A stretch of 64,000 bases of DNA from Pelagimonas varians (GTDB taxonomy: Bacteria > Pseudomonadota > Alphaproteobacteria > Rhodobacterales > Rhodobacteraceae). Shown one piece after another: positions 31,205 to 63,542 of this stretch (position 1 is its first letter; every line of letters starts with the position of its first letter). Where the stretch lies: positions 124,001 to 188,000 of the forward strand of contig NZ_QKMF01000003.1 of assembly GCF_003208435.1 (NCBI RefSeq), read 5' to 3'. The notes under the pieces are model-generated. The model had not been told where the DNA came from. It saw only the letters and a program-made list of their open reading frames with translations, and made no database searches. The translations under genes and the position numbers were made by a program.

Positions 31205-31891
31205 ATGAGCCATCTGAATATCGAATTTCCGCGCAATGTTGCGGCGGGCTGTCAGGCTGTGATTGCCCGCCGTGATGAGGTGGTGACGCTGGCCAGCGGG
31301 CATGAGGAAATCAATCAACGCTGGGTGCATTCCCGCCGCTCTTGGAATGCCGGATTTGGGATCAAAACCAAACAAGATCTGGCGCAGGTCGTGGCGCTGT
31401 TTGAAGAGGCTCGCGGGCGGCGGCACAGCTTTGGGTTTCGCGATTGGCAGGATTGGCACAGCAATGATGGCAGCGCGCCGATTACAGCCACGGATCAACC
31501 GCTTGGCGCGCTGATCGCCAATAGCACGGAATACGGCGATGCGGTTGGCGATGGCACCACGCAAAGCTTTCAACTGGTCAAATCTTACGGCGCAATCAAC
31601 CGCTATCTGCGCCCCATCACCTTGCCACATCTGGCGGGGCTGCAAGTGGCCATCAATGGCGTTCCGCAAGCCTCAGGTTGGAGCCTATCTGCCACCGGCG
31701 GGCGCATCAGTTTTGACACCCCGCCGCCCGATGCTGCCACCCTCACCGCCGGGTTCACTTTTGATGTGCCCGTGCGGTTTTCTGAGGCGCAGATTGCAAC
31801 GGAATGGGTTTATTTCAATGCGCAACGCGGCCTTGGGTCGGTTCCGTCGATTGGGTTGCTGGAAAAGCGCATGGACGCGCAAGCGGGCTGA
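31205..31891 (+). CDS. Distal tail protein, GTA gp12-like (DUF2460)
   Basis: The 228-residue protein starts with MSHLNIEFPRNVAAGC and has RRSWNAGFGIKTKQDLAQVVALFEEARGRRHSFGFRDWQDW, the DUF2460 signature shared with gene transfer agent gp12. Such proteins form the ring joining the tail tube to the baseplate. It starts the GTA-like baseplate block (gp12 to gp15 order) that follows the tape measure gene. GGGGG lies before the ATG. Confidence 0.88.
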   Translation: MSHLNIEFPRNVAAGCQAVIARRDEVVTLASGHEEINQRWVHSRRSWNAGFGIKTKQDLAQVVALFEEARGRRHSFGFRDWQDWHSNDGSAPITATDQPLGALIANSTEYGDAVGDGTTQSFQLVKSYGAINRYLRPITLPHLAGLQVAINGVPQASGWSLSATGGRISFDTPPPDAATLTAGFTFDVPVRFSEAQIATEWVYFNAQRGLGSVPSIGLLEKRMDAQAG

Positions 31892-31893
31892 TT

Positions 31894-32031
31894 ATGGGTC
31901 GCATTTTGAATTTGGCGGCGCTTTGGTGTCGCCGGTGCCGAACCTGCCGCATTGTTTTGCGCGGCGGCGTTGCGGTTTGTGCTGGTTGCGGCGGGCCGGT
32001 TGGCGATGATCCAAACAAGGAAAACCCATGA
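31894..32031 (+). CDS. 45-residue zinc-ribbon peptide in the baseplate operon
   Basis: It starts 2 bases after the previous stop and its own stop overlaps the next ATG (ATGA). The product has two CxxC pairs (CRRCRTC region and CAGCGG) separated by about 13 residues, the pattern of a minimal zinc ribbon, and a short acidic tail. It is too short for usual annotation cut-offs. The coupling on both sides argues it is translated. Confidence 0.6.
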   Translation: MGRILNLAALWCRRCRTCRIVLRGGVAVCAGCGGPVGDDPNKENP

Positions 32032-32903
32032 CAACTTACGAAGACGCTTTGCGCAGCGGCAGCACCTCGCTTTGCCGCTGCTTTCATTTGACGCGCGCGG
32101 ATGGCGTTGTGATGGGGTTTACCGATCATGATGTTGATATCCAATTTGAGGGCGTCACCTACCACGCTGAAACCGCGCTGAGCGCCTCGGATGCCTCGCA
32201 ATCTCTTGGCCTGTCGCCAGATGAGCTTGAGGCAAGCGGCGCGCTGTCTTCGGATGCCATCGCAGAGCCGGATATTTTGGCGGGCCTGTATGATGGCGCA
32301 GCGGTTGTTGTTTGGGATGTGGATTTCTCAAATGTGACGGTGCGCCAAATCTTGGGCAGCTACCGCATTGGCGAAATCCAGCGCGGCGCATTGGCGTTTC
32401 AAACTGAGCTGCGATCTATGGCGGCGGCGTTAGAGCAAGAGGTTGGCGAGGTTTATACCGCCACTTGCCCGGTGCGGATGCTGGGCGATCATCGCTGCAA
32501 GCTGGATCTGAGCCATTGGAGCGCGCCCGCCACGGTGATCAACGTGCAAGGGGCTGAGATTGTAGTGAGCGGCCTAGATGCTTTTGACGATGGGTTCTTT
32601 GATCGCGGCACGGTGGCTTGGCAAACCGGCGACAATCTTTTTGATCCCGGCGATATCCATTCAACGGCGCAGGTTGGCGATCTCGTCAAGATAGCCTTGT
32701 GGCGCATGCCGGGCCGCGCCATCGCGCCGGGCGACACGCTGCATGTGACTGCGGGCTGTGATCGCACCGCTGAAACCTGCCGCACCCGCTTTGATAACTT
32801 GCTGAACTTTCGCGGGTGCCCGCACATGCCGGGCAGCGGTTTTGCGTCTGAATATGCCAGCGACAATAGCACCGATCAAACCGGGGGAAGCCGCTTTGCT
32901 TGA
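32028..32903 (+). CDS. Baseplate hub protein, GTA gp13-like (DUF2163)
   Basis: The 291-residue protein has the DUF2163 pattern: CFHLTRADGVVMGFTDHDVDI near the start, LDFSNVTVRQILGSYRIGEIQRGALAFQTELRS-like middle, and four C-terminal Cys (TCPVRMLGDHRCKLD, GCDRTAETCRTRFDNLLNFRGCPHMPG). In the related lambda gpL and GTA hub such Cys bind an iron-sulfur cluster, so the same is likely here. It forms the ring from which the fibre protein hangs. Confidence 0.88.
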   Translation: MTTYEDALRSGSTSLCRCFHLTRADGVVMGFTDHDVDIQFEGVTYHAETALSASDASQSLGLSPDELEASGALSSDAIAEPDILAGLYDGAAVVVWDVDFSNVTVRQILGSYRIGEIQRGALAFQTELRSMAAALEQEVGEVYTATCPVRMLGDHRCKLDLSHWSAPATVINVQGAEIVVSGLDAFDDGFFDRGTVAWQTGDNLFDPGDIHSTAQVGDLVKIALWRMPGRAIAPGDTLHVTAGCDRTAETCRTRFDNLLNFRGCPHMPGSGFASEYASDNSTDQTGGSRFA

Positions 32904-33522
32904 TTTCACCAGTTCCAAAATTATCAATCCGGGCCTTGTGTTGGCCCATGCGCGGGCATGGATCGGCACGCCTTTTGTGCCTCAGGGCGATTTTCGCGGG
33001 GCTGGCGCTGATTGCGTTGGCTTGGCGCGCGGGATCTTGCGCGAGCTGAGCGGCAAATACCTGCCCGCGCCCGCATGGCGCAATGATTGGGCGGCGGTGC
33101 AAGGTGAACCAATTCTTGACGTTTTGCACGCCAATTTGGTGCCTGTGAGCGCCCCCAAGCCGGGCACAATCGCGGTGTTTCGCGTAGGGCATAAACGTGC
33201 CGCACATTTGGGGATTTTGTCCAAGCGCGGGATCATTCATGCGCTGGATGATCATGGGGTGATTGAGGTGGCGCGCGATGGCTTGCCGCCGCTGACAAGC
33301 CTTTGGGGCTTTCCGGTGACTGAGGGCTGTGAGACCGGCCCTGATGATATCAGCCCGAATAATTGCCTTGTGATTATCTGCCCGTGCGGCGGAGGATATT
33401 ACGGTGAAATCACCGTGATGAACGACGGAACACCCCTTGCGCAAACCGGGGTGTTTCAATCCCAGCGCGGCGCGATTGATGCGCTATCAAAGGTCTATCC
33501 AAATATTGAAACGGTGGATTAA
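32896..33522 (+). CDS. Tail-associated NlpC/P60 peptidase, GTA gp14-like
   Basis: NlpC/P60 cysteine peptidase of about 208 residues with nucleophile Cys in GADCVGLARG and catalytic His in AAHLGIL. It cleaves peptidoglycan stem peptides during DNA entry. I prefer the TTG at 32896, which has GGGGGAAG just upstream and overlaps the previous stop by 8 bases; ATG 32854 would give 222 residues and a 50-base overlap. After the peptidase domain (to about residue 145) there is an extra C-terminal domain with a CPCGGGYYGEI segment, which a plain gp14 lacks. Confidence 0.85.
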   Translation: MLDFTSSKIINPGLVLAHARAWIGTPFVPQGDFRGAGADCVGLARGILRELSGKYLPAPAWRNDWAAVQGEPILDVLHANLVPVSAPKPGTIAVFRVGHKRAAHLGILSKRGIIHALDDHGVIEVARDGLPPLTSLWGFPVTEGCETGPDDISPNNCLVIICPCGGGYYGEITVMNDGTPLAQTGVFQSQRGAIDALSKVYPNIETVD

Positions 33523-33525
33523 CGC

Positions 33526-36500
33526 ATGGCAACAGTTCTATTTGCAGGGCTTGGCAGCATGCTGGGCGCGTCCCTTGGTGGCGGCTTGTTTGGTGTTGGC
33601 TCTGCCGTGATCGGGCGCGCAATTGGTGCAACCCTTGGCCGGGCGATTGATCAACGCCTTATGGCGGGCTTGGCTCCTGCGATCAAACAAACTGGCCCGC
33701 GTTTGGACAGTCTGGATATTATGACTTCAAATGAGGGCGCGCCAATTCCTGAAATTTCAGGCCGCGCCGCCATCGCGGGTGAAGTGATTTGGGCGGCTAA
33801 ATTAAAAGAGGACCGCAACACAAAAAACAAATCGGTTGGATCGGGGAAGTCAAAACAAACAGTCAAGCAAACCTCATACAAATATTACACCTCGCTTGCG
33901 ATTGGATTGGGGCGCGGCCCGCTGTCTGGCTATGGCCGGATCTGGATGGACGGCAAGCAAGTTGATCTGTCCAATATGATCAACGAAGGCCGCATTCGGT
34001 TCTATTCAGGGGATGAGGCGCAAATGCCTGATCCCAAGATTGAAGCGGTTGAAGGCTTTGCCCCGGCCTATCGCGGCCTTGCCTATATCGTCTTTGAGGA
34101 TCTGCCGATTGATGATTTTGGCAACCGCCCGCCACAAATCAAGGTTGAGGTGTTTGGTAAATCCGGCGCGCTTGAGGATCTGGTGCGGGGCGTCAATATC
34201 ATTCCGGGCACAAGCGAATGGGGTTATATGCCCTCGGTCGTGACAAAGCGGACGGTGACAAACCCGCTTGATGGCACAATTTACACCACAATGGATCAAG
34301 CCATAGACGGGTTTACGTCAATGTTTGATGTGATCCACGAAAGCAAAGAAAACGCATCACGCCACGCTAAAATTTCCGATTGGTCCTTGTCTATGGATCA
34401 TATGAAATCGGTGCTGCCCGCCGCACAAACCGCAAGTTTGGTTGTGTCGTGGTTCGGCACCGATCTGCGCGCCGGGCAGTGCGAAATTGAGCCGCGTTTA
34501 GAGATGGCAGTGAAAGGCACCGCGCCAGCTTGGACTGCCGGCGGATTGACCCGCGAGGCTGCAAATCTGGTTTCCTTTGAGGATGGCGTGCCAAATTATG
34601 GATCTTCTCCGGCGGATATTTCGGTGATCGAAGGTATTCGCGATCTGCGCGCGCGCGGCAAACGCGTGGTGCTTTATCCCTTTGTCATGATGGATATCAC
34701 CGATAATCAGGCCTTGCCCGATCCATCGGGATCTGGCGTGCAAGAGCGCCACCCATGGCGCGGGCGCATCACGCCTGAGGCCGGGCAATCGGTGTCTGAT
34801 GAAGTCACGGATTTTATGGGCACCGCCGATCCCAGCGATTTCACAATTGCAGGCGATGAGGTGAGCTATAGCGGCCCGAATGAATGGCGGTTTCGCCGGT
34901 TTATCTTGCACCTTGCGCATCTGGCAGCGGCGGCGGGCGGCGTTGACGCCTTCCTGATCGGCTCGGAATTGCGCGGGCTAAGCATGGCCCCGGATGCGAT
35001 TGGCTCTTATCCGTTTGTGCAGGCTCTTCGCTCTCTCGCTGCCGATGTGCGCACGGTTCTGCCGGATGCCAAGATCAGTTATGCGGCGGATTGGTCGGAA
35101 TATCATTCCCATCAAACCGGCAATGATCTGCGGTTCCATCTTGATCCGCTGTGGTCAGATCCGAATATTGATTTCATCGGAATTGACAATTATCTGCCGC
35201 TGTCCGATTGGCGCGACGGCAGCGATCATGCGGACTATGATCCGGCGCAGGGTCATACCACACCCTACGCTTTGGACTACCTCAAGGCCAATATTGAGGG
35301 CGGCGAATATTGGGATTGGTTCTATGCCTCGGAGGCTGACCGCGCGGCGCAGATCCGCACGCCAATTTCTGACGGAGCCTACCAAGAACCGTGGGTGTAC
35401 CGGCAAAAGGCCATTCGCGATTGGCACGCAAACCCGCACCACACCCGCGAAATGGGCTTGCGGATGGATGCCACCGATTGGCAACCCGGATCAAAGCCCA
35501 TCTGGTTCACTGAGCTTGGATGCCCGGCGGTGGATAAGGGTGCAAATCAGCCCAATGTATTCTACGCGGCCAAATCATCTGAAAGCGCCTTGCCGCATTT
35601 TTCCAGCGGTGTGCGCGATGATTTTATGCAGCGTCAATTTCTGCGCGCCTCGCTGGAATGGTGGCGCGACAATGGCGCGGGTGTGGTTGACATAGGCGAC
35701 GTGCAAATCTGGGCTTGGGATGCACGGCCTTGGCCCGAATTTCCGCAACAAACCGGCTTTTGGTCAGATGGCGGCGATTGGCAGCGCGGGCACTGGCTGA
35801 ATGGCCGCGCGGGCGCGGCCCCGGCGGCTGAGCTGATCACCCGCCGCCTGATGGATGGCCACGGGCTGAGCGCGGATGAGATTGACGTGACAGCCTGTTT
35901 TGGCCAAGCGGATGGCTATCCGGCCACCGCGCCAATCGGGTTTCGCGATTGGTTGCAACCGATTGAGGTTGGCCTTGGCCTGCATGCCTTTGAGCGGGGT
36001 GGCCAGTTGGTGGTTGAATCGCGATCCGCCGCGCAAACCGTTGATATGGCGACTGAGGCGGCTTTGGTGGACGATGGCCAAGGATCACTTTTTGAGGCCA
36101 AACGCGCCGCGCTTGAGGATGTTGCAGCGGTGTCGGTCCTGAATTTCATTGATGGCATGGGCGATTATGAACGCTTGCCCGCCCGCGCGATCATTGGCGC
36201 AGGCCGTGAAAACGGATCTGCCGGATCATCCATTGATTTGGTGCTGGATTATGAGCGCGGGCATGCGGCCAATGAGCGGCTTTTGCGCGCGGCTGCCGAT
36301 GGGCGCGATGCAATCGCCTTTCGCCTGCCGCGCAGCGCAACCGCCATCCGGCCCGGTGTTGTCTTGCCGGTCAGTCTGGATGGATTGCCCGCGCGCCCGA
36401 TGATGGTTGAGCGTGTGGTTGAGGGCGTGGATAAACAGGTTGAGGCCAAAAGCTTTAACTTTGGCGTCTATGCGCCAACCGGCGGCGTGCTGCGTGCGGC

Positions 36501-37458
36501 CCCGGCGCTGGCGGGCCAAGGCGCAAGCGCCATTGTGGTGCGCTTTATGGACCTGCCAATTTTGCCGGGTAGCGATGCGGCCCCATGGGATACCTATGTG
36601 GCCTTCCATGCCGATCCTTGGCCAACCAGTGTTGCGGTTGCAAAGTCGGCTGATCCAAGCGGCGGCTATGGCGATCTGGCTGAGGCGGTTTTGCCCTCGG
36701 ATATAGGCGAGCTTACGGCGGATCTTGCCCCGGCTGGCATGCATCTTTGGCAAGAGGCAAGCGTGACGGTCAAGCTCTATTCCGGCAATTTGGTTGGTCG
36801 CACAAAGTTTGACGTTTTGAATGGTCAAAATGCGCTTGCGGTGCTGCATCCGAGCGGTTGGGAAATCTTGCAGTTTCAGGATGCGCAATTGGTTGGCCCG
36901 CAAGAGTGGCGGATTTCCGGGCTGTTGCGCGGGCGGCTTGGCACGGATGCGGTGATAGATCTAGATCCGGTGCCATCCGGCGCGGCAGTTGTTGTCTTGG
37001 ATGAGACTTTGACGCCGCTGGATCTGGGCGCGTCAGAGATCGGCGTGCCGCGCTACTACCGCACCGGGCCATCTGATCAGACCCCAGATCAGCACGGGCT
37101 GCGCAGCTATACCGCCCGCGCCGTGGGCCTGCGCCCCTATGCGCCCTGCCATCTGCGCCAGCAAAATAGCGGCGGTGATATCGCCCTAACATGGTTGCGC
37201 CGCACGCGGCTGGATGGCGAAGCGGATTGGCGCGATGGCGTGGCGGATGTGCCATTGGGCGAGGCACTTGAGGCTTACCGCGTCGAAGTCTGGGCGGGCG
37301 GCACAGTGCAGCGCAGTTGGGACACCTCGGGGCCAAGCGCGACCTATACCGCCGCCATGGCGGCGCAAGATGGCGTTGCCGCGCCCTATGAGCTGCGCGT
37401 GGCGCAAATATCAGAAACCTATGGCCCCGGTGCTTGGGCCGTAGCGCAAATCAGCTAA
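33526..37458 (+). CDS. Tail fibre/host-specificity protein with TIM-barrel domain, GTA gp15-like
   Basis: The 1310-residue protein is the equivalent of the GTA megatron (gp15). A Gly/Ala-rich hydrophobic N-terminus (about 1-45) is followed by a hub-like region with a Lys/Ser-rich loop near residue 100. The GTA TIM-barrel domain lies at about residues 430-720 (FLIGSELRGLSM, ISYAADWSEYH, IDFIGIDNYLPLSDW), then a phage-tail domain (about 730-1000) and fibronectin-like C-terminal parts. It reaches through the baseplate to contact the host cell. Start 3 bases after the previous stop. Confidence 0.92.
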   Translation: MATVLFAGLGSMLGASLGGGLFGVGSAVIGRAIGATLGRAIDQRLMAGLAPAIKQTGPRLDSLDIMTSNEGAPIPEISGRAAIAGEVIWAAKLKEDRNTKNKSVGSGKSKQTVKQTSYKYYTSLAIGLGRGPLSGYGRIWMDGKQVDLSNMINEGRIRFYSGDEAQMPDPKIEAVEGFAPAYRGLAYIVFEDLPIDDFGNRPPQIKVEVFGKSGALEDLVRGVNIIPGTSEWGYMPSVVTKRTVTNPLDGTIYTTMDQAIDGFTSMFDVIHESKENASRHAKISDWSLSMDHMKSVLPAAQTASLVVSWFGTDLRAGQCEIEPRLEMAVKGTAPAWTAGGLTREAANLVSFEDGVPNYGSSPADISVIEGIRDLRARGKRVVLYPFVMMDITDNQALPDPSGSGVQERHPWRGRITPEAGQSVSDEVTDFMGTADPSDFTIAGDEVSYSGPNEWRFRRFILHLAHLAAAAGGVDAFLIGSELRGLSMAPDAIGSYPFVQALRSLAADVRTVLPDAKISYAADWSEYHSHQTGNDLRFHLDPLWSDPNIDFIGIDNYLPLSDWRDGSDHADYDPAQGHTTPYALDYLKANIEGGEYWDWFYASEADRAAQIRTPISDGAYQEPWVYRQKAIRDWHANPHHTREMGLRMDATDWQPGSKPIWFTELGCPAVDKGANQPNVFYAAKSSESALPHFSSGVRDDFMQRQFLRASLEWWRDNGAGVVDIGDVQIWAWDARPWPEFPQQTGFWSDGGDWQRGHWLNGRAGAAPAAELITRRLMDGHGLSADEIDVTACFGQADGYPATAPIGFRDWLQPIEVGLGLHAFERGGQLVVESRSAAQTVDMATEAALVDDGQGSLFEAKRAALEDVAAVSVLNFIDGMGDYERLPARAIIGAGRENGSAGSSIDLVLDYERGHAANERLLRAAADGRDAIAFRLPRSATAIRPGVVLPVSLDGLPARPMMVERVVEGVDKQVEAKSFNFGVYAPTGGVLRAAPALAGQGASAIVVRFMDLPILPGSDAAPWDTYVAFHADPWPTSVAVAKSADPSGGYGDLAEAVLPSDIGELTADLAPAGMHLWQEASVTVKLYSGNLVGRTKFDVLNGQNALAVLHPSGWEILQFQDAQLVGPQEWRISGLLRGRLGTDAVIDLDPVPSGAAVVVLDETLTPLDLGASEIGVPRYYRTGPSDQTPDQHGLRSYTARAVGLRPYAPCHLRQQNSGGDIALTWLRRTRLDGEADWRDGVADVPLGEALEAYRVEVWAGGTVQRSWDTSGPSATYTAAMAAQDGVAAPYELRVAQISETYGPGAWAVAQIS

Positions 37459-45025: not shown

Positions 45026-45039
45026 TTGAGGCGGATCAA
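45026..45039. promoter_or_regulatory. FNR/FnrL-type box upstream of DUF5765 gene
   Basis: TTGAGGCGGATCAA keeps the TTGA-N6-TCAA core of FNR-family sites. Its centre lies about 55 bases before the ATG at 45088, which suits a class II promoter. Confidence 0.6.
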
Positions 45040-46121: not shown

Positions 46122-48779
46122 TCACAGCCCGAACGGGAAGGTTTCATCTTCTTGGTCGCTTGAAAGCGTTGCCAACGGTGTAACTGCGCTCGTTTCGTTG
46201 AACCAGACATAGGCGTCATACTGGTCGGAAAGGCTTGCATAGCTGTAATGGCTAGAACGTTCGGACTCAGGTCGGTAGATTACGCCGATGTAGCGTTGCA
46301 GCCGTTGCCGAGCCAGAATTCCCTTCAGGTTTTTGGTACGGTCACCGCCAAAATCAAGGAGAAAACGCTCCAGACCGGTGTCACGGCACATCGCTTCATA
46401 GCTGTCACCCCGCGGTGGGCGTATGGTCTTGAACTCGATCGGTTTGTCCCATTCGGATGCTGCCGCGACTGTACCTGATGCTGTGCCAAAGCCGATCAGT
46501 GCCGCTGTATCACCATATGCCTCTCGGCAGAGTTGCCCTATGTTCCATTCGCCGCGCGACTGGCCCATATCTGTAAACCGTGCGTCTCCGATATGAGAAT
46601 TATGAGCCCAGACCACCGCTTTTTCCGACGGCCCTGCGTGTTTAAGAATACTGTTCAGGGTCTCGAACATGTGTCGGTCGCGCAAGTTCCACGACAGGTG
46701 AGATCCATAGTACATAGCGCGATAGTACTGCTTTGCATTGGCGACAAGTCGGGCGTTCTGGGCCGCATCAAAAAACTGGTCACCATCGCGGTTGATGTAG
46801 TCGAGTTCCTTATGGAGCAGGTCGACAAGGATATCGGTCACCGGTTTTTGACATTTTGCGAACCCATGGGTCAGGGCCGCCCGGCCATAGGCTGCCGGTT
46901 CACGAGACCACGGCGACAGGCAGGCATATCGTTTGCGCGCAATTTCTGATGCTTTGGGATCTACCCGGTCAAGATAGTCCAGAACCGCAGCCATGGACGC
47001 CCTCATATTGTAGAGATCCAAGCCGTAGAACCGGACACGATCTTTTGTCTCAATGAGGCTGTTATGGTGGCGCAGGAAATCCGTAAACGCCTGAAACTCA
47101 CTGTTTCTCCACATCCAGGTGGGAAAGCGCGAAAAAGGCGGTGGTTGCATCTCAGGCTGCGCGATCTGCCCGATATGGCGATCTACGGTTGCAGCATCAG
47201 GCCAGTCCGCCTCTACTGCGACGATGGAGAAGCCATGTTTTTCGATCAAGCGCTGTGTGATTGCGGCCCGCGCCCGATAGAACTCGGATGTCCCGTGTGA
47301 GGCCTCGCCCAGAAGAACCACGCGGTGTGAACCAAACCGGTCAAAGGATTTGGCAAAATCGGGATCGTTGAGCGCCGGAAGCGGCTCTGCGGCGGCGCGC
47401 AATGCCTGAATTTCCGGATTTGCCAAAGGTGGCGCTGGTTCCGCTGGGTTCACCTGCAACGATACCAAATGTTTGTCGAACCAATTTGCCGCATGACCCA
47501 CAGCAGTATCAAGCGTCCCGCTCTCTTCGAAAAGGTGGCCTGCGCCGGGAACAATCTGCATCTGCCTTGTGCAATTGAGGTCGGATAAAGCGCCTTTGTT
47601 CAGTTCGATCACTTCGTGGTCGAGGCTGCCGACAACCAGAAGTGTTGGTGCGGTGACGTGCTGAAGATGTCTTCCAGCCAAATCCGGACGTCCACCGCGA
47701 GAGACTACAGCTGCAACTCTGTTCAAAAGCTCTGCTGCCGCGACAAGCGCCGCCGCAGCACCGGTACTGGCACCGAACAAGCCGAGCGGCAGATCAGCGA
47801 TGTCGGGTTCAGAGGCTACCCACATTGCGGCTTCCACGACTCGCTCGGCCAGCAGTTGGATGTCAAAAACGTTCTGGCGGTCCTGTCCCTCGGTCGGTGT
47901 CAACAAGTCGAACAGCAGGGTCGCAAAACCTTGGTCGTTGAGTCGGGAGGCGACTTGCCTGTTTCGAGGGCTGAGGCGGCTGGAGCCGCTTCCATGCGCA
48001 AAAAGGATTATGCCGCGAGGATCCTTCGGCACCACCAGATCGCCAACTAGACCCAATGGGGGGATCTCTACCTTTCGCTTGTGCGGCGTGCTTTCGTTCT
48101 CGCTCCTATCAACTGAAGCGTCGGGAAACCCTGCTTGGCCGAGTAAGGCAACGGTTTCATCATCGGTGAGCTGGTGGAAGTCATGATAAAACCCACCAAC
48201 ACCGCGAAACTCAGTCGATGGCACAAGGCAAACGACATCGTCCGCCAAGCCAGCCAGCTCCTGCAACGCTTGAACGGGTGCGACTGGCAATGCGACCACG
48301 ATTCTTGCAGCACCGTTTCGATGCAAGGCCGTCAGGGCCGCCTTCATGGTTGCCCCGGTGGCCAAGCCATCGTCGACAACGACAACTGTTCGGCCTTTGG
48401 GGTTCAAACGCTTTCGATCCCCGACATAGCGATCGCGCCTGCGTTCCAGCTCTGCCAGCTGTTCGGCATAGGCGCTTTCAAAATACTCCGTATCTGCTCC
48501 GGACCTCCGCCTGATGTCTTCATTGATGACAACCTGCACCTCGTCACCTTCGACAATGGCCCCGAGCGCCACCTCGGCATTGCCCGGCGCACCGATTTTG
48601 CGCACAAGAACAACGTCTAACGGTGCTGCTAGCGTTTGCGCCACTTCCACGCCGACGGGCACACCGCCGCGCGGCAGGGCAAAAACAAGCGGCTGATGCA
48701 ACCCCATTGCCGCTAGCTGCTCGGCGAGCTTTTGACCGGCGTCTTTGCGGTCCATGAATCTAATAGCGAATTCATCCAT
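46122..48779 (-). CDS. Phosphoribosyltransferase / dienelactone hydrolase-like / erythromycin esterase-like fusion
   Basis: The 885-residue protein has three complete domains. Residues 1-215 are a type I phosphoribosyltransferase with PRPP loop VVVVDDGLATGAT. Residues about 230-440 are an alpha/beta hydrolase (FAHGSGSSR, nucleophile Ser in GASTGA, SLDHEV, GAGHLF). Residues about 460-885 are an erythromycin esterase family domain (GEASHGT, VEADWPDA, WAHNSHIGDAR). Two-domain relatives occur in Mycobacterium, in genes linked to the dormancy response; all three in one chain is unusual. The substrate is unknown. An FNR-type box lies just upstream. No signal peptide. Confidence 0.85.
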   Translation of the reverse strand: MDEFAIRFMDRKDAGQKLAEQLAAMGLHQPLVFALPRGGVPVGVEVAQTLAAPLDVVLVRKIGAPGNAEVALGAIVEGDEVQVVINEDIRRRSGADTEYFESAYAEQLAELERRRDRYVGDRKRLNPKGRTVVVVDDGLATGATMKAALTALHRNGAARIVVALPVAPVQALQELAGLADDVVCLVPSTEFRGVGGFYHDFHQLTDDETVALLGQAGFPDASVDRSENESTPHKRKVEIPPLGLVGDLVVPKDPRGIILFAHGSGSSRLSPRNRQVASRLNDQGFATLLFDLLTPTEGQDRQNVFDIQLLAERVVEAAMWVASEPDIADLPLGLFGASTGAAAALVAAAELLNRVAAVVSRGGRPDLAGRHLQHVTAPTLLVVGSLDHEVIELNKGALSDLNCTRQMQIVPGAGHLFEESGTLDTAVGHAANWFDKHLVSLQVNPAEPAPPLANPEIQALRAAAEPLPALNDPDFAKSFDRFGSHRVVLLGEASHGTSEFYRARAAITQRLIEKHGFSIVAVEADWPDAATVDRHIGQIAQPEMQPPPFSRFPTWMWRNSEFQAFTDFLRHHNSLIETKDRVRFYGLDLYNMRASMAAVLDYLDRVDPKASEIARKRYACLSPWSREPAAYGRAALTHGFAKCQKPVTDILVDLLHKELDYINRDGDQFFDAAQNARLVANAKQYYRAMYYGSHLSWNLRDRHMFETLNSILKHAGPSEKAVVWAHNSHIGDARFTDMGQSRGEWNIGQLCREAYGDTAALIGFGTASGTVAAASEWDKPIEFKTIRPPRGDSYEAMCRDTGLERFLLDFGGDRTKNLKGILARQRLQRYIGVIYRPESERSSHYSYASLSDQYDAYVWFNETSAVTPLATLSSDQEDETFPFGL

Positions 48780-48812: not shown

Positions 48813-48826
48813 TTGATATCGGTCAA
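48813..48826. promoter_or_regulatory. FNR/FnrL-type box upstream of the fusion gene
   Basis: TTGATATCGGTCAA matches TTGA-N6-TCAA. Its centre lies about 40 bases before the start of the leftward fusion gene, in a 68-base gap after the alcohol dehydrogenase gene. Confidence 0.6.
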
Positions 48827-48847: not shown

Positions 48848-49834
48848 TTACGGGACCAGAACTGCGGCCCCCTGAAGGCGACCAGCCCTGAGATCGTCCA
48901 GAGCGGCATTCGCCTCTTCTAGCGGGTATGCAGTTGTATGGGTGCGCACGCCTGCCTTGTCGGCCAAGGGAAAGAATTCTTGACCGTCCTGCCGGGTTAA
49001 ATTGGCAACCGACATGATTTGACGCTCTTGCCAAAGACTTGCGTAGGGAAACGATGGAATGTCGCTCATATGGATACCGCCGCAAACAACCTTCCCGCCC
49101 TTGCATAATGCGCTCAGGGCACGAGGGATCAACTCTCCGACTGGTGCAAAAATGATCGCAGCATCCAGCGGGGCAGGTGGGGTTTGCCCGGAACTGCCAG
49201 CCCAAACCACGCCGAGCTTTCTTGCGAAATCTTGTGCGTCCACGTCGCCCGCGCGCGTGAATGCGTAGACTTCGCGCCCCTGATAAACAGCGATCTGTGC
49301 GAGTATATGCGCAGCTGCCCCAAATCCATAAAACCCAAGCCGTTGCGCATCGCCCGCCATGCGCAAGCTGCGGTATCCAATCAGGCCCGCACACAGCAAA
49401 GGGGCCAGCGCGACAGGATCTGCGGTTTCGGACAAGGCGAAGACGTACCGCGCATCCGCGACGCATTCTTCGGCAAATCCACCATTCAGGGTGTAGCCGG
49501 TAAACCGCGCGTTATCACACAGGTTCTCGCGGTGAGTGCGACAGAACCCGCAGGCCCCACATGTCCAACCCAGCCACGGTACGCCAACGCGTTTCCCGAT
49601 CTTCATGCCTACAACCCCGGGACCGATTTCGGCGATGCGGCCAACGATCTCGTGGCCGGGGATCAGCGGCATTTTTGGATTGGGAAGGTCTCCGTCCAGA
49701 ACATGAAAGTCTGTGCGGCAGACACCGCAAGCCTCGATTTTGATCCGGACCTGCCCGGCACCGACACGCGGAGCCTCCACCTCTTCGAGCTGAAGTCTGT
49801 TCCTAAGGCCAGCATGTAAAGTCATTGCACGCAT
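48848..49834 (-). CDS. Zinc-dependent alcohol dehydrogenase
   Basis: The 328-residue protein (ATG complementary to 49832-49834 or three codons later) is a medium-chain zinc dehydrogenase. The catalytic zinc ligands are Cys in ACGVCRTDFH and His in PGHEIVG; structural zinc Cys lie in CGACGFCRTHRENLC. The nucleotide fold YGFGAAAH lacks the usual GxGxxG, so cofactor binding may be altered. Closest in layout to AdhP-like enzymes adjacent to stress genes in Alphaproteobacteria. The substrate is probably an alcohol or aldehyde. A one-mismatch FNR box lies upstream. Confidence 0.88.
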   Translation of the reverse strand: MRAMTLHAGLRNRLQLEEVEAPRVGAGQVRIKIEACGVCRTDFHVLDGDLPNPKMPLIPGHEIVGRIAEIGPGVVGMKIGKRVGVPWLGWTCGACGFCRTHRENLCDNARFTGYTLNGGFAEECVADARYVFALSETADPVALAPLLCAGLIGYRSLRMAGDAQRLGFYGFGAAAHILAQIAVYQGREVYAFTRAGDVDAQDFARKLGVVWAGSSGQTPPAPLDAAIIFAPVGELIPRALSALCKGGKVVCGGIHMSDIPSFPYASLWQERQIMSVANLTRQDGQEFFPLADKAGVRTHTTAYPLEEANAALDDLRAGRLQGAAVLVP

Positions 49835-49957: not shown

Positions 49958-50788
49958 TCATTTGGAAAAGGGCCGCCCCAACGGTTCCATATCCAGACGG
50001 TAATCCTCGGCAACCCGGAACACGGTCTTGTTTGGCACTTCGTACCATTGATCAACAATGGTGACAGGTTCCGACGCGATCTCGATGGCCTGATAGTTGG
50101 TTTTGGGATCGTGATGCACGTGGGGTTGATCGCAGATCGGACAATGGAACACATGGTCACGGTGCAGATAGTGTAGTGAGCGGTTGTAGCGCGATCCGAT
50201 CATATGTTCGCCATCGGTCAGAACGATGTTCAGGCCCACGCGGGCGGTCGGATCAACTTCTGCTGCCCAGGTCAAAATCTGCTCGAGCCCCTCTTTTACA
50301 GTGGCAAGCAGGCCGCGTTCAGGGTGTAGCAAAAACAAGCTCATCAAATAGCGAAAAATATGTTCGCTATCGGTGGTTCCGGAAATTTTTGTTCGGTGAA
50401 GCGGGTCGATATGGTCGAGCATCTTCATCCGGACATCGTCGAAATTCGGTATCGTGCCGTTATGGGCGAAAATCCATCTGCCGTGATGGAATGGGTGGGT
50501 GTTTTCGATGCTGGTCCCGCCCACCGTCGCGCGGCGCACATGAGCCACAACGGTCTTGGCATAAACGCGCGCAGCTTTGCGGGTGAAATGTTCACCGTGA
50601 AAGGCGGCCCAGACCTGCTTTTCGATCATCGGCACTCCGTCGGGGTAGTCGGCAACGCCCCAACCATGTCCATGTGCGTATCCTTCCATGTCGCTTTGGC
50701 TTTGCGCCATCAGAGCGTTTTGGGCTTTGACGAGGCCGCATTCTACCTTGGTCGGTTCGTTGGCATGCATCGCGTAAAGACGGCACAT
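49958..50788 (-). CDS. Class II glutamine amidotransferase-like protein
   Basis: The 276-residue protein starts MCRLYAMH, so Cys2 is the N-terminal nucleophile once Met is removed. VVAHVRRATVGG and HPFHHGRWIFAHNGTIPNF supply the glutamine-binding and oxyanion residues of the GATase_4 (YafJ/EgtC) group. EgtC in ergothioneine synthesis hydrolyses a gamma-glutamyl amide. Here no other egt gene is present, but an ATP-grasp ligase is divergently transcribed from the same control region. A role in making or trimming a glutamyl-peptide-like product is possible but inferred. Confidence 0.85.
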   Translation of the reverse strand: MCRLYAMHANEPTKVECGLVKAQNALMAQSQSDMEGYAHGHGWGVADYPDGVPMIEKQVWAAFHGEHFTRKAARVYAKTVVAHVRRATVGGTSIENTHPFHHGRWIFAHNGTIPNFDDVRMKMLDHIDPLHRTKISGTTDSEHIFRYLMSLFLLHPERGLLATVKEGLEQILTWAAEVDPTARVGLNIVLTDGEHMIGSRYNRSLHYLHRDHVFHCPICDQPHVHHDPKTNYQAIEIASEPVTIVDQWYEVPNKTVFRVAEDYRLDMEPLGRPFSK

Positions 50789-50841
50789 TAGGCTTTTCCC
50801 TTCGTTGATAGGCGGATTTTAGGAATTTGCGCGGAGATGGA

Positions 50842-50855
50842 TTGATTTTGATCAA
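50842..50855. promoter_or_regulatory. Perfect FNR box between divergent amidotransferase and ATP-grasp genes
   Basis: TTGATTTTGATCAA matches the full FNR consensus TTGAT-N4-ATCAA. It lies about 60 bases before the leftward gene and about 40 before the rightward one, so one dimer could control both. Confidence 0.75.
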
Positions 50856-50887
50856 ATTGACTGCCGGAATCCGGCTTATTTTTCCGT

Positions 50888-52321
50888 ATGTTCAACCAGC
50901 GGCAAACCAAGGACTCTGAAAGCGACTTGATCGCGCAAGACTATCTGCGCGACGAACCTGCCTTTTTGTCCTCTTTGGATTTCGGCCCTTTCGTGGCACA
51001 AGGCTGCGGGCCGGGGCCGTCTGTCCTGATTGGCGATCAGTCCGAGATCAACCTGCTGGGGTCTGTGTCGGATGTGCGGCTTGACCACCGTATGGCGCTG
51101 TTGGCAAGGAACGGTGACACCGTTCTGGTGCGCCACCGTGAGGCGGCGTTCGAGACCTACCTTGCCGACTTTCTTGGACTTGACGAAGTGTCGTTCATCC
51201 AGGTTGATAACGACCCGCTCCGCCCGGTCGCAGAGCAAGTGCGCATCTCGCTGCCACAGCGTGACGCGCTTGCGCAGACAGCGCGAAAGAGCGGCGGCAT
51301 GACGCTCAAAGCCTATTTGACTACGGGGAATATCTGGAGGCTGGCGCAGACCGTCGGAGAGACTTCGGGCGCGCGCATTCATGTCAGCGGCCCGTCACCG
51401 CGTGCCACCCAGCGTGCCAATGACAAGCTGTGGTTCAGTCATCTGGTGCAAAAAATCATAGGATCCAATGCAACCCCTCCAACACTTGCCGCCTATGGCC
51501 CGGCGGCGGCGGCGGGTCTTGCACGAAAGATCAGTCGCTCCGCAGGGCAGGTTATCATCAAGGTGCCCGATAGTGCAGGCTCAGCTGGGAATATCAGGCT
51601 TGAAGGCGCGCTTTTGCGAAGCATGTCCCTTGTCGAGGTAAGACAATTTCTGATGGAGCGGTTGCGCAGCATCGGTTGGCAAGACAGCTTCCCAATTCTG
51701 GTAGGTGTCTGGGATGAAAATGTCAGCCGTAGCCCGTCAGTCCAACTTTGGATACCAAAAATATCTGACGGCCGGCCACTGGTTGAGGGAGTTTTTGAGC
51801 AACGTGTGCAAGGGGCGGCCGCCGCCTTTGGCGGCGCGGTGCGTTCAGACTTGCCGATCTCCTTACAAGAACAGTTAGGTGCCGAGGCCCGCTCGATTGC
51901 CAGTGTTCTTCAAAAGCTGGGCTATTTCGGGCGCTGCAGTCTGGATTCAGTGATTTGTGACGCGCCGGGGCGACCAAGCACCATTCACTGGATCGAATGC
52001 AACGGCCGTTGGGGCGGTGTGTCCATTCCAATACAGGCGGCGTCGCGGCTGATACCCGGCAAAGTATTGCCTGCTATCGCGATTGTTCAGGAAATCCTGC
52101 CAGAGCACGTAATTGGCACGCGGCAACTTCAGCAGCATTTGGGGGACCTCCTGTTCCGCCATGGCAAGAACACGGAAGGCTTGATCATTTTGTCGCCGGC
52201 AGAAAGTCGGGGCGGTACGTCTGTCAATTTGCTGGCAATTGCCGCTACGCAGGGGGCCGCGGATGGTTTTCTGGCCGAAGCGATGGCACGGCTTGCCTCC
52301 GTTCGCTCAGGCGCTGGCTGA
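50888..52321 (+). CDS. ATP-grasp ligase, PGM1-like (preATP-grasp domain)
   Basis: The 477-residue protein has an N-terminal preATP-grasp-like domain (about 35-150, SVLIGDQSEINLLGSV). An ATP-grasp fold follows with AGQVIIKVPDSAGSAGNIRL as the nucleotide-binding Lys strand and loop, VGVWDENVSRSPSVQLWI, and the metal-site region WIECNGRWGGVSIP with Glu and Asn. The layout fits the peptide ligase PGM1-related family, which forms amide bonds in small peptides. The substrate is unknown. Its neighbour downstream and the divergent amidotransferase may act with it. Confidence 0.75.
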   Translation: MFNQRQTKDSESDLIAQDYLRDEPAFLSSLDFGPFVAQGCGPGPSVLIGDQSEINLLGSVSDVRLDHRMALLARNGDTVLVRHREAAFETYLADFLGLDEVSFIQVDNDPLRPVAEQVRISLPQRDALAQTARKSGGMTLKAYLTTGNIWRLAQTVGETSGARIHVSGPSPRATQRANDKLWFSHLVQKIIGSNATPPTLAAYGPAAAAGLARKISRSAGQVIIKVPDSAGSAGNIRLEGALLRSMSLVEVRQFLMERLRSIGWQDSFPILVGVWDENVSRSPSVQLWIPKISDGRPLVEGVFEQRVQGAAAAFGGAVRSDLPISLQEQLGAEARSIASVLQKLGYFGRCSLDSVICDAPGRPSTIHWIECNGRWGGVSIPIQAASRLIPGKVLPAIAIVQEILPEHVIGTRQLQQHLGDLLFRHGKNTEGLIILSPAESRGGTSVNLLAIAATQGAADGFLAEAMARLASVRSGAG

Positions 52322-52359
52322 GTATCCATCCTGTCCCATCCGATGCCGCATCGACGGTG

Positions 52360-52983
52360 ATGACCCTTGGCCCTCGGGAGGCGGCGGCCCATGCTTCTTT
52401 CCTCAACTGTGCCCTCCTTTGGCCAATCGGGTTGAGCGTTCCAGAGTTTGACCTGCATCAATCCGTTTTCCTCGCTGTCCTTCACTTTCTCCCCCAGTTG
52501 GCCAGCGAATCTCAGAGGTTCTTCACCGTGCAAAATATCATTCAACACTCGGAAACCTTTCAAAAACCGCCTGCCGGGGATACCGACGGGCCTGTCTGGC
52601 TGGAGATCGCTGATCATGGTGCCAAAAGTGGAATAGATATTGGAGTGTTTGATCCGGTCACCAACCAGCTGTGCTTTGAAATTATCACTCTGGCCCCTGA
52701 GGCCTGTCCGCTGATCGGAAAGGAACCCCAATCAAATGAGTCCTTCCGTGCGTTTTGCAAAGCCTTGAACCGCACCACGAGCAGAGGCAGAATTTATGTT
52801 CTCATTCAGTTTCACCAAAGCGTTTCCACAGCTCATGCACCAGACATCGAGAGTGATGATCGCAGCAGCAGAGTCTATAGGATGGTCGAAGATATCGTTG
52901 ATGAAATTTTAACACATAGACCAGGATCAAAGATCGAGATTGGAATGCGACATGCCGGAGGATCAGTTACATCACTCATGTGA
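52360..52983 (+). CDS. Unknown protein downstream of the ATP-grasp ligase
   Basis: The 207-residue protein (ATG 52360; GTG 52357 is also possible) starts 38 bases after the ligase gene and probably shares its transcript. It is soluble and mixed alpha/beta, with PVWLEIADHGAKSGIDIGVFDP, LCFEIITLAPEACPLIG and RIYVLIQFHQSVST. No family is recognised. The same frame extends 5' into the ligase gene, but that part reads like a shadow. Its function may be linked to the ligase product. Confidence 0.6.
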   Translation: MTLGPREAAAHASFLNCALLWPIGLSVPEFDLHQSVFLAVLHFLPQLASESQRFFTVQNIIQHSETFQKPPAGDTDGPVWLEIADHGAKSGIDIGVFDPVTNQLCFEIITLAPEACPLIGKEPQSNESFRAFCKALNRTTSRGRIYVLIQFHQSVSTAHAPDIESDDRSSRVYRMVEDIVDEILTHRPGSKIEIGMRHAGGSVTSLM

Positions 52984-53075: not shown

Positions 53076-53510
53076 ATGCCAGAGGCAATCAAATTGACAT
53101 GTCTGTCCTGTGGACAAGGAAATCGGTTTTCAGCTGCAAGGCTTGACGCAGGGCCGAAATGTGCAAAATGTAGCGCGCTGCTGGTCAGTGGGGACGTCGC
53201 AGAGATCAACATGAAAATCCATGACAAAGCGCTGAAGATCGACGACCTTCCGCTGCTTGTCGACTATTGGGCCCCTTGGTGTGGTCCGTGCAAGATGATG
53301 GCCCCTGAATTTGCAACGGCGGGCAAGGCTCTGCGTTTCAAATCACGCTTTGCCAAGATCAACACCGAACAATTTTCTGCAATATCTCAGCGGCTGCAGA
53401 TAAAGGGGATTCCACTGTTGATCCTATATGCCAAAGGCCGTGAAATTGCGCGCTTACCGGGCGCAAGACCTGCTGCCGAAATCGAGGCATTTGTGCGACA
53501 ATACCTTTAG
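53076..53510 (+). CDS. trxC: Thioredoxin 2
   Basis: The 144-residue protein has the N-terminal zinc finger that marks thioredoxin 2 (C9-x2-C12 and C29-x2-C32). The thioredoxin domain carries active site WCGPC at 68-72 and the cis-Pro in KGIPLLILY. It reduces protein disulfides in the cytosol; E. coli TrxC is part of the peroxide response, and loss of zinc by oxidation changes its activity. GGAAGAG precedes the ATG. Confidence 0.93.
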   Translation: MPEAIKLTCLSCGQGNRFSAARLDAGPKCAKCSALLVSGDVAEINMKIHDKALKIDDLPLLVDYWAPWCGPCKMMAPEFATAGKALRFKSRFAKINTEQFSAISQRLQIKGIPLLILYAKGREIARLPGARPAAEIEAFVRQYL

Positions 53511-54755: not shown

Positions 54756-54769
54756 TTGATTTTGGTCAA
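54756..54769. promoter_or_regulatory. FNR/FnrL-type box upstream of the sugar transporter
   Basis: TTGATTTTGGTCAA matches TTGA-N6-TCAA and differs by one base from the perfect site at 50842. It lies about 155 bases before the binding-protein start, so a leader of about 110 bases would be needed. The rest of the gap 54561-54917 shows no gene. Confidence 0.5.
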
Positions 54770-62690: not shown

Positions 62691-63542
62691 TCAGTTGATT
62701 GGCGACAACAAGCTGGGGTTAGTAACCAGATTGCGCACGCCGTGTGCGTGGTTTTCCCCAAACGGGTTGTCGCTAAGCCACTTGCCAACAGAGGCAATAT
62801 TCAACTTGGCCACTCCCGGGCGCACACTCCAGGTTACCTGGAATGGTGACGCTTTTTCGTTATAGCCGGGGCCGGTGGTTGAGCCTTCATATACGACCGG
62901 TTGCCCCAAATCAGTTGGAAGGTTAGGGACCTGATTTATACCTTCGACTTTTTCAATGTGGGCCATTTCGGTGAAATCGACACCTCCCTCAGACACAAGA
63001 ACGGCCACGACCGTCTCTACCCGCAGCTGCGGATTGCCGATAGCGTCGCTTAAACAGGTGCCGAGGCCATTGCCCAAAGTCGCTTGCGCCGTCGAGTGTA
63101 CAAAATGGATCTCGATCGTATCTCCCGGCACGAGGTCGCCATGTTCGCTTTTGCCGACGGACATGTCGATTGGTGCGCGCTCGGCGTCAGTGAGGGCACC
63201 GTCGTACTTGAAGCCGGTGCCATAGCCGTTTCCGTCGCCGTTGCCCGCATAGGTGGTAAAGCCACCTCCCTTGTGCTCGGCGTTTTCATGAAAATGAATG
63301 TCGCACAGCATCATGTTACCCACGTCTGGGGCAGATCCGAAAACACGTTGGTTGACGCCATCCAGCGCATCAATGTCACGCGGCGATTGTGGTCCAAATC
63401 CTTGGCCCTGCGTCGCGGCGGATAAGGTTGCACGCTGCGCGGCGATGACATCATCCGAAACGGTATGACCATCGGTTGCAGCGTACGCAGTAGATTCAAG
63501 CATTGCGACCGAAAGGCTGAGCAGCAAAATTTTGTTGAGCAT
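62691..63542 (-). CDS. Secreted delta-class carbonic anhydrase
   Basis: The 283-residue protein has a Sec signal (cleavage near AYA-A, residue 22). It carries the delta-class pattern: MMLCDIHFHENAEHKGG, TYAGNGDGNGYGTGFKY, GDTIEIHFVHSTAQA and a C-terminal GENHAHGVRNLVTNPSLLSP. The His/Cys cluster in the first and third blocks should bind zinc or another metal. Carbonic anhydrase interconverts CO2 and bicarbonate, here outside the cytoplasm. The delta class was first described in diatoms, and bacterial members are fewer. It is flanked by gene-poor DNA on both sides. Confidence 0.85.
   Translation of the reverse strand: MLNKILLLSLSVAMLESTAYAATDGHTVSDDVIAAQRATLSAATQGQGFGPQSPRDIDALDGVNQRVFGSAPDVGNMMLCDIHFHENAEHKGGGFTTYAGNGDGNGYGTGFKYDGALTDAERAPIDMSVGKSEHGDLVPGDTIEIHFVHSTAQATLGNGLGTCLSDAIGNPQLRVETVVAVLVSEGGVDFTEMAHIEKVEGINQVPNLPTDLGQPVVYEGSTTGPGYNEKASPFQVTWSVRPGVAKLNIASVGKWLSDNPFGENHAHGVRNLVTNPSLLSPIN

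Follow-up and report, generated by a model that had tools for sequence, protein, structure and literature searches.

Bacterial gene sets for hypoxia and dormancy include the FNR/DNR regulons and the DosR regulon of mycobacteria; to our knowledge, the ligase-amidase gene pair considered here has not been described within either. The systems closest to the ligase are BesA (8yi6), which we take to be the gamma-glutamyl ligase of beta-ethynylserine biosynthesis, the 'ATP-grasp peptide ligase' 8ynd, and the pheganomycin peptide ligase PGM1 (3wvq/3wvr), and those closest to the amidase are EgtC, the Dug2-Dug3 complex, and 1te5, presumably a YafJ-type protein. According to excerpts of PMC8939145, PGM1 couples a peptide with a nonproteinogenic amino acid. 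EgtC, in excerpts of PMC10805701, removes the glutamyl part (the 'glutamine fraction' in the wording of that paper) from S-hercynyl-gamma-glutamylcysteine sulfoxide. Excerpts of PMC6508711 describe the conversion of glutathione to glutamate and Cys-Gly by the Dug2-Dug3 complex, which is also able to transfer the gamma-glutamyl group; the partner of Dug3 is thus Dug2 and not an ATP-grasp ligase. Like 1te5, Dug3 is a standalone class II protein.

Results

The window, by which we mean the whole analysed stretch of 64,000 nucleotides from Pelagimonas varians, contains the following features of interest.

46122-48779, minus strand: PRTase/hydrolase/erythromycin-esterase fusion (domain and curated models), a recurrent neighbour
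48848-49834, minus strand: Zn-alcohol dehydrogenase (domain and curated models), a recurrent neighbour
49958-50788, minus strand: class II amidotransferase-type (Ntn, Cys2) protein of 276 aa (GATase_4, EgtC model, invariant residues)
50111-50143, minus strand: amidase codons 216-226, with C216, C219, H223 and H226 as a putative metal-binding knuckle (alignment)
50842-50855, unstranded: exact FNR/DNR-type box TTGATTTTGATCAA (pattern scan)
50888-52321, plus strand: PGM1/BesA-type ATP-grasp ligase of 477 aa (Pfam, profile, AF2 fold)
52448-52461, plus strand: FNR-like box TTGACCTGCATCAA, 5' of the 151-aa gene, with one mismatch to the exact box
52528-52983, plus strand: orphan protein, probably of 151 aa, from GTG 52528 (homologues in loci L031, L032 and L054)
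53076-53510, plus strand: thioredoxin 2 (TrxC-like) with an N-terminal zinc ribbon (Pfam; context)

The ligase and amidase reading frames are both open and divergent, with start codons 99 nt apart. The first-pass annotation had called the ligase a PGM1-like, peptide-forming ATP-grasp enzyme, and the likeness to PGM1 is borne out by profile and fold. Pfam assigns PreAtp-grasp to the window protein (5.8e-11; 43.2 bits against a cut-off of 27.5) and to 77 of 78 homologues (E 0.01); PGM1_C was not reported in the window protein at E 0.1 and was matched by 2/78 homologues at E 0.01. Over 78 aligned rows K225 is invariant and E370, N372 and R374 are at least 90% conserved; by analogy with the superfamily, these would be the ATP/Mg residues (Lys, Glu-x-Asn, Arg). 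Sequence profiles matched 8ynd (6.2e-16) and PGM1 (5.7e-8), and BesA was not among the matches at E 0.01. The AF2 model (pLDDT 91.6) is closest to BesA (Z 32.0 over 409 residues, 19-20% identity only), PGM1 (Z 31.2) and 8ynd (Z 30.9), the latter two at about 18% identity; these scores put the three level as fold matches, with BesA not set apart, and the next row has Z 25.2. A close match to a housekeeping enzyme, which had been raised as an objection beforehand, was not found among solved structures, where the best rows have 17-20% identity. In contrast to PGM1, the neighbours of this ligase family are stress and energy genes, and no natural-product cluster is present.

The assignment of the amidase as a Cys2 class II amidotransferase was likewise correct: its open frame begins with Met-Cys2, Pfam GATase_4 matches it at 7.4e-25 and is found in 57/57 aligned amidases, and C2, R85, T88, N110, G111 and D140 are invariant in these 57 sequences. 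The comparison with EgtC also holds, in that EgtC is the nearest curated model, matching 57/57 amidases with the lowest best E-value among the models listed, although the window protein scores 122.8 bits, below the TIGR03442 cut-off of 218.65. The Cys2, Arg, Thr and Asn-Gly motifs are shared with EgtC, and the amidase probably cuts gamma-glutamyl bonds. With 1te5 (profile match 1.3e-17) it shares the form of a standalone GATase_4-type Ntn protein. However, the C216/C219/H223/H226 motif, invariant in 57/57 aligned amidases, is missing from the aligned EgtC (4zfj) and 1te5 sequences; this CxxC...HxxH signature may bind a metal and marks a distinct amidase subfamily. As to the claimed absence of the other egt genes, it stands for EgtD alone, which was not found in the organism's own genome (0/1), a modest negative because the control was positive in only 1/14 genomes and fell below the cut-off there. 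Both the ligase and the amidase look like soluble single enzymes.

The ligase-amidase pair is a conserved unit. Of 79 named ligase loci, 62 have the amidase at most 0.8 kb away; 58 of these pairs are divergent, two co-directional (Mycobacterium), one co-directional the other way and one convergent. By protein match the amidase is found in 61/79 loci, the next commonest gene in 25, and the adjacency is kept while the remaining island genes reshuffle. Among 248 genomes of the family, the ligase occurs in 8 and the amidase subfamily in 9, all 8 being shared (hypergeometric 2.8e-14, assuming independent genomes); the ninth amidase is a fragment at a contig end. Ligase and amidase distances are correlated (r 0.725 over 54 loci), and in the 10 loci that also carry PDH E1 the ligase-amidase correlation is 0.958 versus 0.314 for ligase and PDH. 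Four plasmid records that we viewed label the amidase only 'class II glutamine amidotransferase' and the adjoining ligase only 'hypothetical protein', and no description of the pair was found in open-licence literature, judged from search listings.

The association has exceptions. A subfamily amidase was not found in the genome for 10/79 ligase loci, no ligase match was present in the 7-12 kb fetched around the amidase of four genomes (G251, G253, G257 and G259), and the two genes are unlinked in some genomes. The gammaproteobacterial ligases L101, L103 and L105 (the last two identical rows) have no amidase and adjoin an M20-type gene, called by eye for all three and by Pfam for L103, which would be an amidohydrolase in the amidase's place; L102, which groups with L101 and L103 in the tree, has no M20-type neighbour by eye. 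No ligase-amidase fusion was seen among the reading frames shown for part of the 79 loci. The 923-aa ligase frame of L102 was considered as a fusion and rejected, Pfam finding PreAtp-grasp only; its tail after an ambiguous base appears by eye to be non-coding.

The surroundings of the pair look like a hypoxia/dormancy island, with USP, Hsp20, the PRTase-erythromycin esterase, a ribosome hibernation factor, and hemerythrin-like and nitroreductase-like proteins; neighbours of all these kinds are a trait in common with the FNR/DNR and DosR gene sets. BLAST finds relatives of the PRTase-erythromycin-esterase fusion in 16 of the 79 loci and of the alcohol dehydrogenase in 10. In a survey of clusters built from open reading frames (antisense clusters included) and judged by eye, no conserved third enzyme stood out beyond general island genes among clusters of at least 6 loci.

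The perfect FNR box reported earlier is exact and is conserved in position. TTGATTTTGATCAA is centred closer to the ATG of the ligase (39.5 nt) than to that of the amidase (60.5 nt). The 4.93-Mb genome has 16 exact sites, this one included, and a single occurrence of the reversed pattern. Counting the window, 31 of 52 regions have FNR half-sites at one constant spacing from the amidase start (0.23 expected), and the position is anchored on this start. An FNR-family regulator, and with it oxygen, would be expected to control the pair.

The third gene, which the first-pass annotation had placed under the same control region and considered a partner, has fared differently. It is real and belongs to no Pfam family that we could find, as had been said, but its length is most likely 151 aa (52528-52983) and not the 207 aa of the longer frame starting at 52360, because in L032 the open frame reaches no further than four codons 5' of the GTG aligned with window residue 57, and at that position L054 has ATG and the window GTG 52528. 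In L031 a few of the residues just 5' of it are alike, but further 5' the L031 reading looks by eye like another frame of the window. The protein has homologues of 51-59% identity in L031, L032 and L054. Its AF2 model is weak (pLDDT 61.7) and has no PDB match with an E-value of 0.001 or lower, so that we assign it no fold. In the window, L031 and L032 the gene comes directly 3' of the ligase, and L054 has it next to the pair; its homologues adjoin the pair in 3/79 loci, and it was not found in the sequence around the other 76, some stretches of which are short. Conservation of neighbourhood, named in advance as a test, was observed for the pair and not for this gene. A common control region holds for the ligase and the amidase, while the third gene has an FNR-like box of its own, 73.5-74.5 nt from its start in the window, L031 and L032, with TTGAC-N4-GTCAA at the TTGACCTGCATCAA position in the latter two, and need not depend on the control region of the pair.

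Homologues also occur in G141, where the ligase was not found, in G300 with other island genes and without the pair in the 10.5 kb fetched, and on the SK012 plasmid about 70 kb from the ligase. The G141 homologue (L014), one of eight weak matches besides the gene itself in a genome search, is real by profile and in being 48% identical to its counterpart on SK012. The other matches were discarded: L010 runs antisense to an alpha/beta-hydrolase-like frame, L012, L013, L016 and L017 are 57-67% like L010 in pairwise comparison, and the minus-strand matches L011 and L015, whose plus frame is the same hydrolase, are presumably antisense as well. Co-occurrence largely rules the gene out as an obligate partner, and we regard it as an optional neighbour outside the pair.

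Discussion

Two enzymes encoded side by side in apparent low-oxygen islands point to an undescribed two-enzyme step, and the small-molecule step suggested by the first reading of this locus remains plausible. We tentatively prefer a low-oxygen module in which the ligase would make, and the amidase cut, a gamma-glutamyl amide. Low oxygen would turn the module on through an FNR-family regulator working from the common intergenic region and anchored on the amidase promoter. The ligase would activate a carboxylate with ATP as an acyl phosphate, by the ATP-grasp mechanism, and couple it to an amine, most likely putting a glutamyl group on the amine via the gamma-carboxyl. A gamma-glutamyl amide would be cleaved (or transferred) by the amidase, in which Cys2 would be the nucleophile and the glutamine/gamma-glutamyl pocket is conserved. 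Between them, the two enzymes would attach a gamma-glutamyl group to a single small molecule and detach it again, which would bracket a modification by an unlinked enzyme or provide a reversible store. The pairing, the families, the conserved motifs and the box with its position are observed; we infer the gamma-glutamyl chemistry, the order of steps, the regulator, the oxygen control and the metal. This reading is favoured by the pairing, the profile, the correlated distances, the BesA fold match, the EgtC model, the chemistry of EgtC and Dug2-Dug3 in the cited excerpts, the position of the box, and the M20-type amidohydrolase at the amidase-less L101 and L103/L105. Several observations speak against it. 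The neighbourhood of the pair shows no obvious third enzyme to act on a gamma-glutamyl intermediate, and a ligase and an amidase under one control region without such an enzyme could be a futile cycle. BesA, PGM1 and 8ynd are equal by Z, BesA is not among the profile matches, and PGM1, as excerpts of PMC8939145 describe it, joins an amino acid to a peptide and not a gamma-glutamyl group. In addition, there are the 10/79 loci without a found amidase, and L102 without an M20-type neighbour.

The absence of a third conserved gene would be explained if the pair were a two-subunit glutamine-dependent amide synthetase, the amidase releasing ammonia from glutamine and passing it to a ligase that converts a carboxylate to a primary amide. 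The tight pairing and the intact glutaminase-type motifs fit this main alternative, for which the invariant CxxC...HxxH could be a docking element. We nevertheless find it doubtful: ten of the 79 ligase loci come from genomes that yielded no subfamily amidase, the amidases of G251, G253, G257 and G259 lack a ligase match nearby, and we know of no characterised EgtC or Dug relative that donates ammonia to a separate synthetase. In the excerpts consulted, EgtC and Dug2-Dug3 act on gamma-glutamyl compounds (PMC10805701, PMC6508711).

It is unlikely that the two enzymes are merely co-regulated and biochemically separate, with a peptide or conjugate as the ligase product and glutathione or glutamine as the amidase substrate, in general nitrogen or sulfur economy at low oxygen. 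The islands do hold many unrelated stress genes, the two genes are unlinked in some genomes, and glutathione is the Dug2-Dug3 substrate in excerpts of PMC6508711; however, the adjacency survives island reshuffling (61/79 loci versus 25 for the next gene), and ligase divergence tracks the amidase far better than PDH E1, in a comparison of 10 loci only. A three-gene pathway with an obligate 207-aa protein is very improbable, since the third gene, for all its position 3' of the ligase (window, L031, L032) or beside the pair (L054), was not found at 76/79 loci (some stretches being short), has its own FNR-like box, and occurs in G141 without the ligase, in 10.5 kb of G300 without the pair, and on the SK012 plasmid well apart from the ligase.

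Many marine bacteria carry the pair, as do a few mycobacteria, in islands that look to be of the low-oxygen survival type. Beyond the gamma-glutamyl module preferred above, it is possible, though we hold this with some doubt, that marine Alphaproteobacteria, one methanotroph and a small number of mycobacteria share an undescribed small-molecule pathway for dormancy under oxygen limitation, with the pair at its core. In such a pathway the PGM1/BesA-type ligase and the EgtC-like amidase with its putative metal knuckle would make and release (or amidate) one metabolite only at low oxygen. If the pairing reflects one reaction sequence, it would offer a handle on a metabolite of bacterial low-oxygen survival.

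Conservation of the Ligase/Amidase Pair

The two genes under consideration are divergently transcribed.

50888-52321, + strand, ATP-grasp ligase, open frame of 477 aa
49958-50788, - strand, amidase-like protein, open frame of 276 aa, divergent from the ligase

The ligase is present in 8 of the 248 genomes of the family to which P. varians belongs, and amidases of at least 64% identity occur in the same eight; a ninth amidase match (G245) is a contig-end fragment of 53% identity, and the remaining 23 matches are at most 38% identical. The two genes are adjacent in all eight genomes, the window counted, seven times divergently and once convergently. Searching named genomes with the ligase alignment yielded 84 confirmed stretches; the best 80, corresponding to 79 distinct loci, were kept, and distant ligase members are therefore under-sampled. 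At least six of the 79 loci coincide with ligase-bearing genomes of the family survey. Most of the loci from these best 80 of 84 stretches are alphaproteobacterial; others come from Beta- and Gammaproteobacteria, Methylococcus capsulatus, and two Mycobacterium. Within the same set, an amidase lies within 0.8 kb of the ligase at 62 of the 79 loci: 58 are divergent, two are arranged amidase-then-ligase (both Mycobacterium), one ligase-then-amidase, and one is convergent. The genus of the Mycobacterium locus L068 has the ligase in 3 of 148 genomes, that of L068 counted. The ligase was also found on 12 plasmids (11 from Leisingera, one from Sulfitobacter); on the four plasmids viewed, the ligase carries the annotation hypothetical protein and its divergent neighbor that of a class II glutamine amidotransferase. 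Judged from search listings, a name or description of the pair was not found in the open-licence literature.

At 17 of the 79 ligase loci no amidase was found in the stretch, some of these stretches being short. Whole-genome searches (19 genomes, including two added pair-positive ones) revealed a subfamily amidase elsewhere in the genome for seven of them, in G249 split into two pieces over two contigs. This unlinked amidase adjoins another ligase match in G248 (cut by a contig end) and in G264; no ligase match was found in the 7-12 kb around the amidase in G251, G253, G257, and G259. For the other ten loci the search gave no amidase above 35% identity; all ten genomes are titled metagenome assemblies, and that of L086 is a whole chromosome. 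In the ligase tree, built by a quick method with a midpoint root and several forks left open, all 17 amidase-less loci fall inside one 30-row part, and the amidase is present in all of the other 48 rows.

Several loci have other neighbors. Gammaproteobacterial ligases without amidase are convergent with an M20-peptidase-type gene in L101 (3565-4740), L103 (2232-3410; supported by Pfam), and L105 (11442-12620), the L103 and L105 ligases being identical. A further ligase lineage comes from Rhodospirillales-type genomes (L070, L077, and L080); upstream in L077 and L080 there is, by eye, a methyltransferase-like gene, and the amidase is located elsewhere in the genome. A hemerythrin-type gene lies between ligase and amidase in L084, L085, L094, and L108, and adjoins the amidase in the Mycobacterium loci L068 and L097 (identified by Pfam in L084 and L068, by eye in the others).

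The first-pass annotation named conservation of the three-gene neighborhood as a check and took a 207-residue ORF (probably 151 aa, 52528-52983, + strand) for a partner of the pair. The neighborhood is conserved for ligase and amidase, but not for the third gene: in a search of 90 stretches, its homologs adjoin the pair at 3 of the 79 loci from the best 80 of 84 stretches (L031, L032, and L054, with 51-59% identity across 151 aa), a profile finds it in 3 of 390 genomes of the order, its own counted, and G141 has it without the ligase. In G300 it lies near Zn-ADH and PRTase-esterase genes. Coding similarity starts at or just 5' of the GTG codon at 52528, and a TTGAC-N4-RTCAA box is located 73.5-74.5 nt upstream of the start in the window, L031, and L032. 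The gene is an optional neighbor of the pair, its fold unassigned by prediction.

Families and Possible Function

Pfam PreAtp-grasp matches the window ligase at 43.2 bits (cut-off 27.5); no NCBIfam model does at E 0.1. The profile of 78 aligned ligases matched two solved relatives at E 0.01, namely 8ynd (6.2e-16), which bears the title ATP-grasp peptide ligase, and PGM1 3wvq (5.7e-8). The AlphaFold2 model is confident (pLDDT 91.6, pTM 0.91); its top VIA-align rows are BesA 8yi6 (Z 32.0), PGM1 (31.2), and 8ynd (30.9), values too close to order, and the next unrelated row has Z 25.2. Foldseek likewise places these three on top. BesA, an enzyme that makes a gamma-glutamyl dipeptide, is at most a candidate identity for the ligase.

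For the amidase, the Pfam match is GATase_4 (7.4e-25) and the top NCBIfam model is EgtC; each of these two models hits all 57 aligned homologs. The window protein is not assigned to EgtC proper, since it scores under the curated cut-off (122.8 versus 218.65 bits). Among solved structures it is closest to 3mdn, 1te5, and EgtC; GlmS and PurF are more distant. C2, R85, T88, N110, G111, and D140 are invariant in all 57 sequences, a pattern expected, from general knowledge of the residue roles, of an Ntn glutamine/gamma-glutamyl enzyme. Equally invariant are C216, C219, H223, and H226 (consensus CPICGxPHVHH), which form a putative zinc site. In contrast, EgtC 4zfj has two residues only aligned at this motif, and the cysteine pair is absent from the 1te5 alignment at that place; the alignment with 3mdn stops short of it.

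These families fix the class of chemistry, an ATP-dependent amide-forming ligase with a Cys-dependent gamma-glutamyl or glutamine enzyme. Our first choice, a tentative one, is an on/off gamma-glutamyl module, in which the ligase would put the group on and the amidase would take it off; it is preferred because BesA is among the three best fold matches of the ligase. Passages in two papers describe removal of the glutamyl group of a pathway intermediate by EgtC (PMC10805701) and cleavage of glutathione by Dug2-Dug3, where the gamma-glutamyl group can be transferred (PMC6508711). However, the fold does not tell BesA from PGM1, and no third enzyme is conserved near the pair. A third enzyme would not be required if ligase and amidase formed a two-subunit glutamine-dependent amide synthetase, but this seems rather unlikely to us, and we know of no precedent in this amidase group. 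Mere co-regulation of the two genes is an explanation to which we give still less weight than to the synthetase.

Candidate FNR-Type Sites and Genomic Surroundings

The perfect FNR box reported earlier for the ligase/amidase region was recovered as the exact FNR-type box TTGATTTTGATCAA at 50842-50855, between the two ORFs. Across the whole genome (4.93 Mb in 56 contigs), the exact site occurs 16 times, versus once for the backwards pattern. Every 14-mer was scored against TTGAT-N4-ATCAA in 52 of the 58 divergent loci (six with gaps >600 nt omitted) and the window; with L072 dropped as too short, 52 regions remained, the window counted. Scores of at least 8/10 at 50-60 nt from the amidase start codon occur in 31 of these regions versus 0.23 expected from base shuffles, and of at least 9/10 in 19 versus 0.01, the loci not being independent because related species share descent; 21 regions have no such box. 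The distance to the amidase start is unchanged in loci whose ligase match starts 150-250 nt off, and therefore the box appears to be anchored on the amidase promoter. In the scanned parts of six larger-gap loci, no box scoring at least 8 was found in L079, L082, L084, and L108; L085 and L094 have two each, of which the first overlaps codons close to the start of the amidase and the second is near that of the hemerythrin gene. Further one-mismatch boxes in the window are located at 48813-48826, just upstream of the PRTase-esterase start, and at 54756-54769 and 45026-45039, near an ABC sugar-transport-type operon and a DUF5765 gene.

The neighborhoods of the 79 loci (best 80 of 84 stretches) contain BLAST relatives, some of them distant, of genes labeled from plasmid annotation and the window: acetate-CoA ligase (25 loci), PDH E1 (23), PDH E2 (20), Hsp20 (18), USP (18), and PRTase-esterase (16). 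Neighbor clusters, with one or two members each checked by Pfam, add a ribosome hibernation factor (11), a LonB-like protease (10), and a hemerythrin-domain protein (8). In Mycobacterium, hemerythrin-like and nitroreductase-like genes adjoin the pair (Pfam-checked in L068).

The near neighbors in the window are Zn-ADH, PRTase-esterase, and thioredoxin 2, with PHA synthase and a host-attachment-like protein further away; relatives of acetate-CoA ligase, PDH, and Hsp20 were not matched in the 64 kb. The PRTase-esterase (46122-48779) has 885 aa and joins phosphoribosyltransferase, dienelactone-hydrolase-like, and erythromycin-esterase domains in one protein; it presumably resembles a DosR-regulon protein of mycobacteria. 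A strong Pfam match to 'Delta carbonic anhydrase' (4e-67) lies at 62694-63542, near the PHA synthase gene, and gene-transfer-agent-type tail genes (GTA_TIM, Rcc01698-like, DUF2460) at 31205-37455.

Stress and energy genes of the kinds found around the pair are part of hypoxia responses of the FNR or DosR type. Overall, the ligase and amidase are a real, conserved enzyme pair, and the islands that surround them are probably low-oxygen islands.
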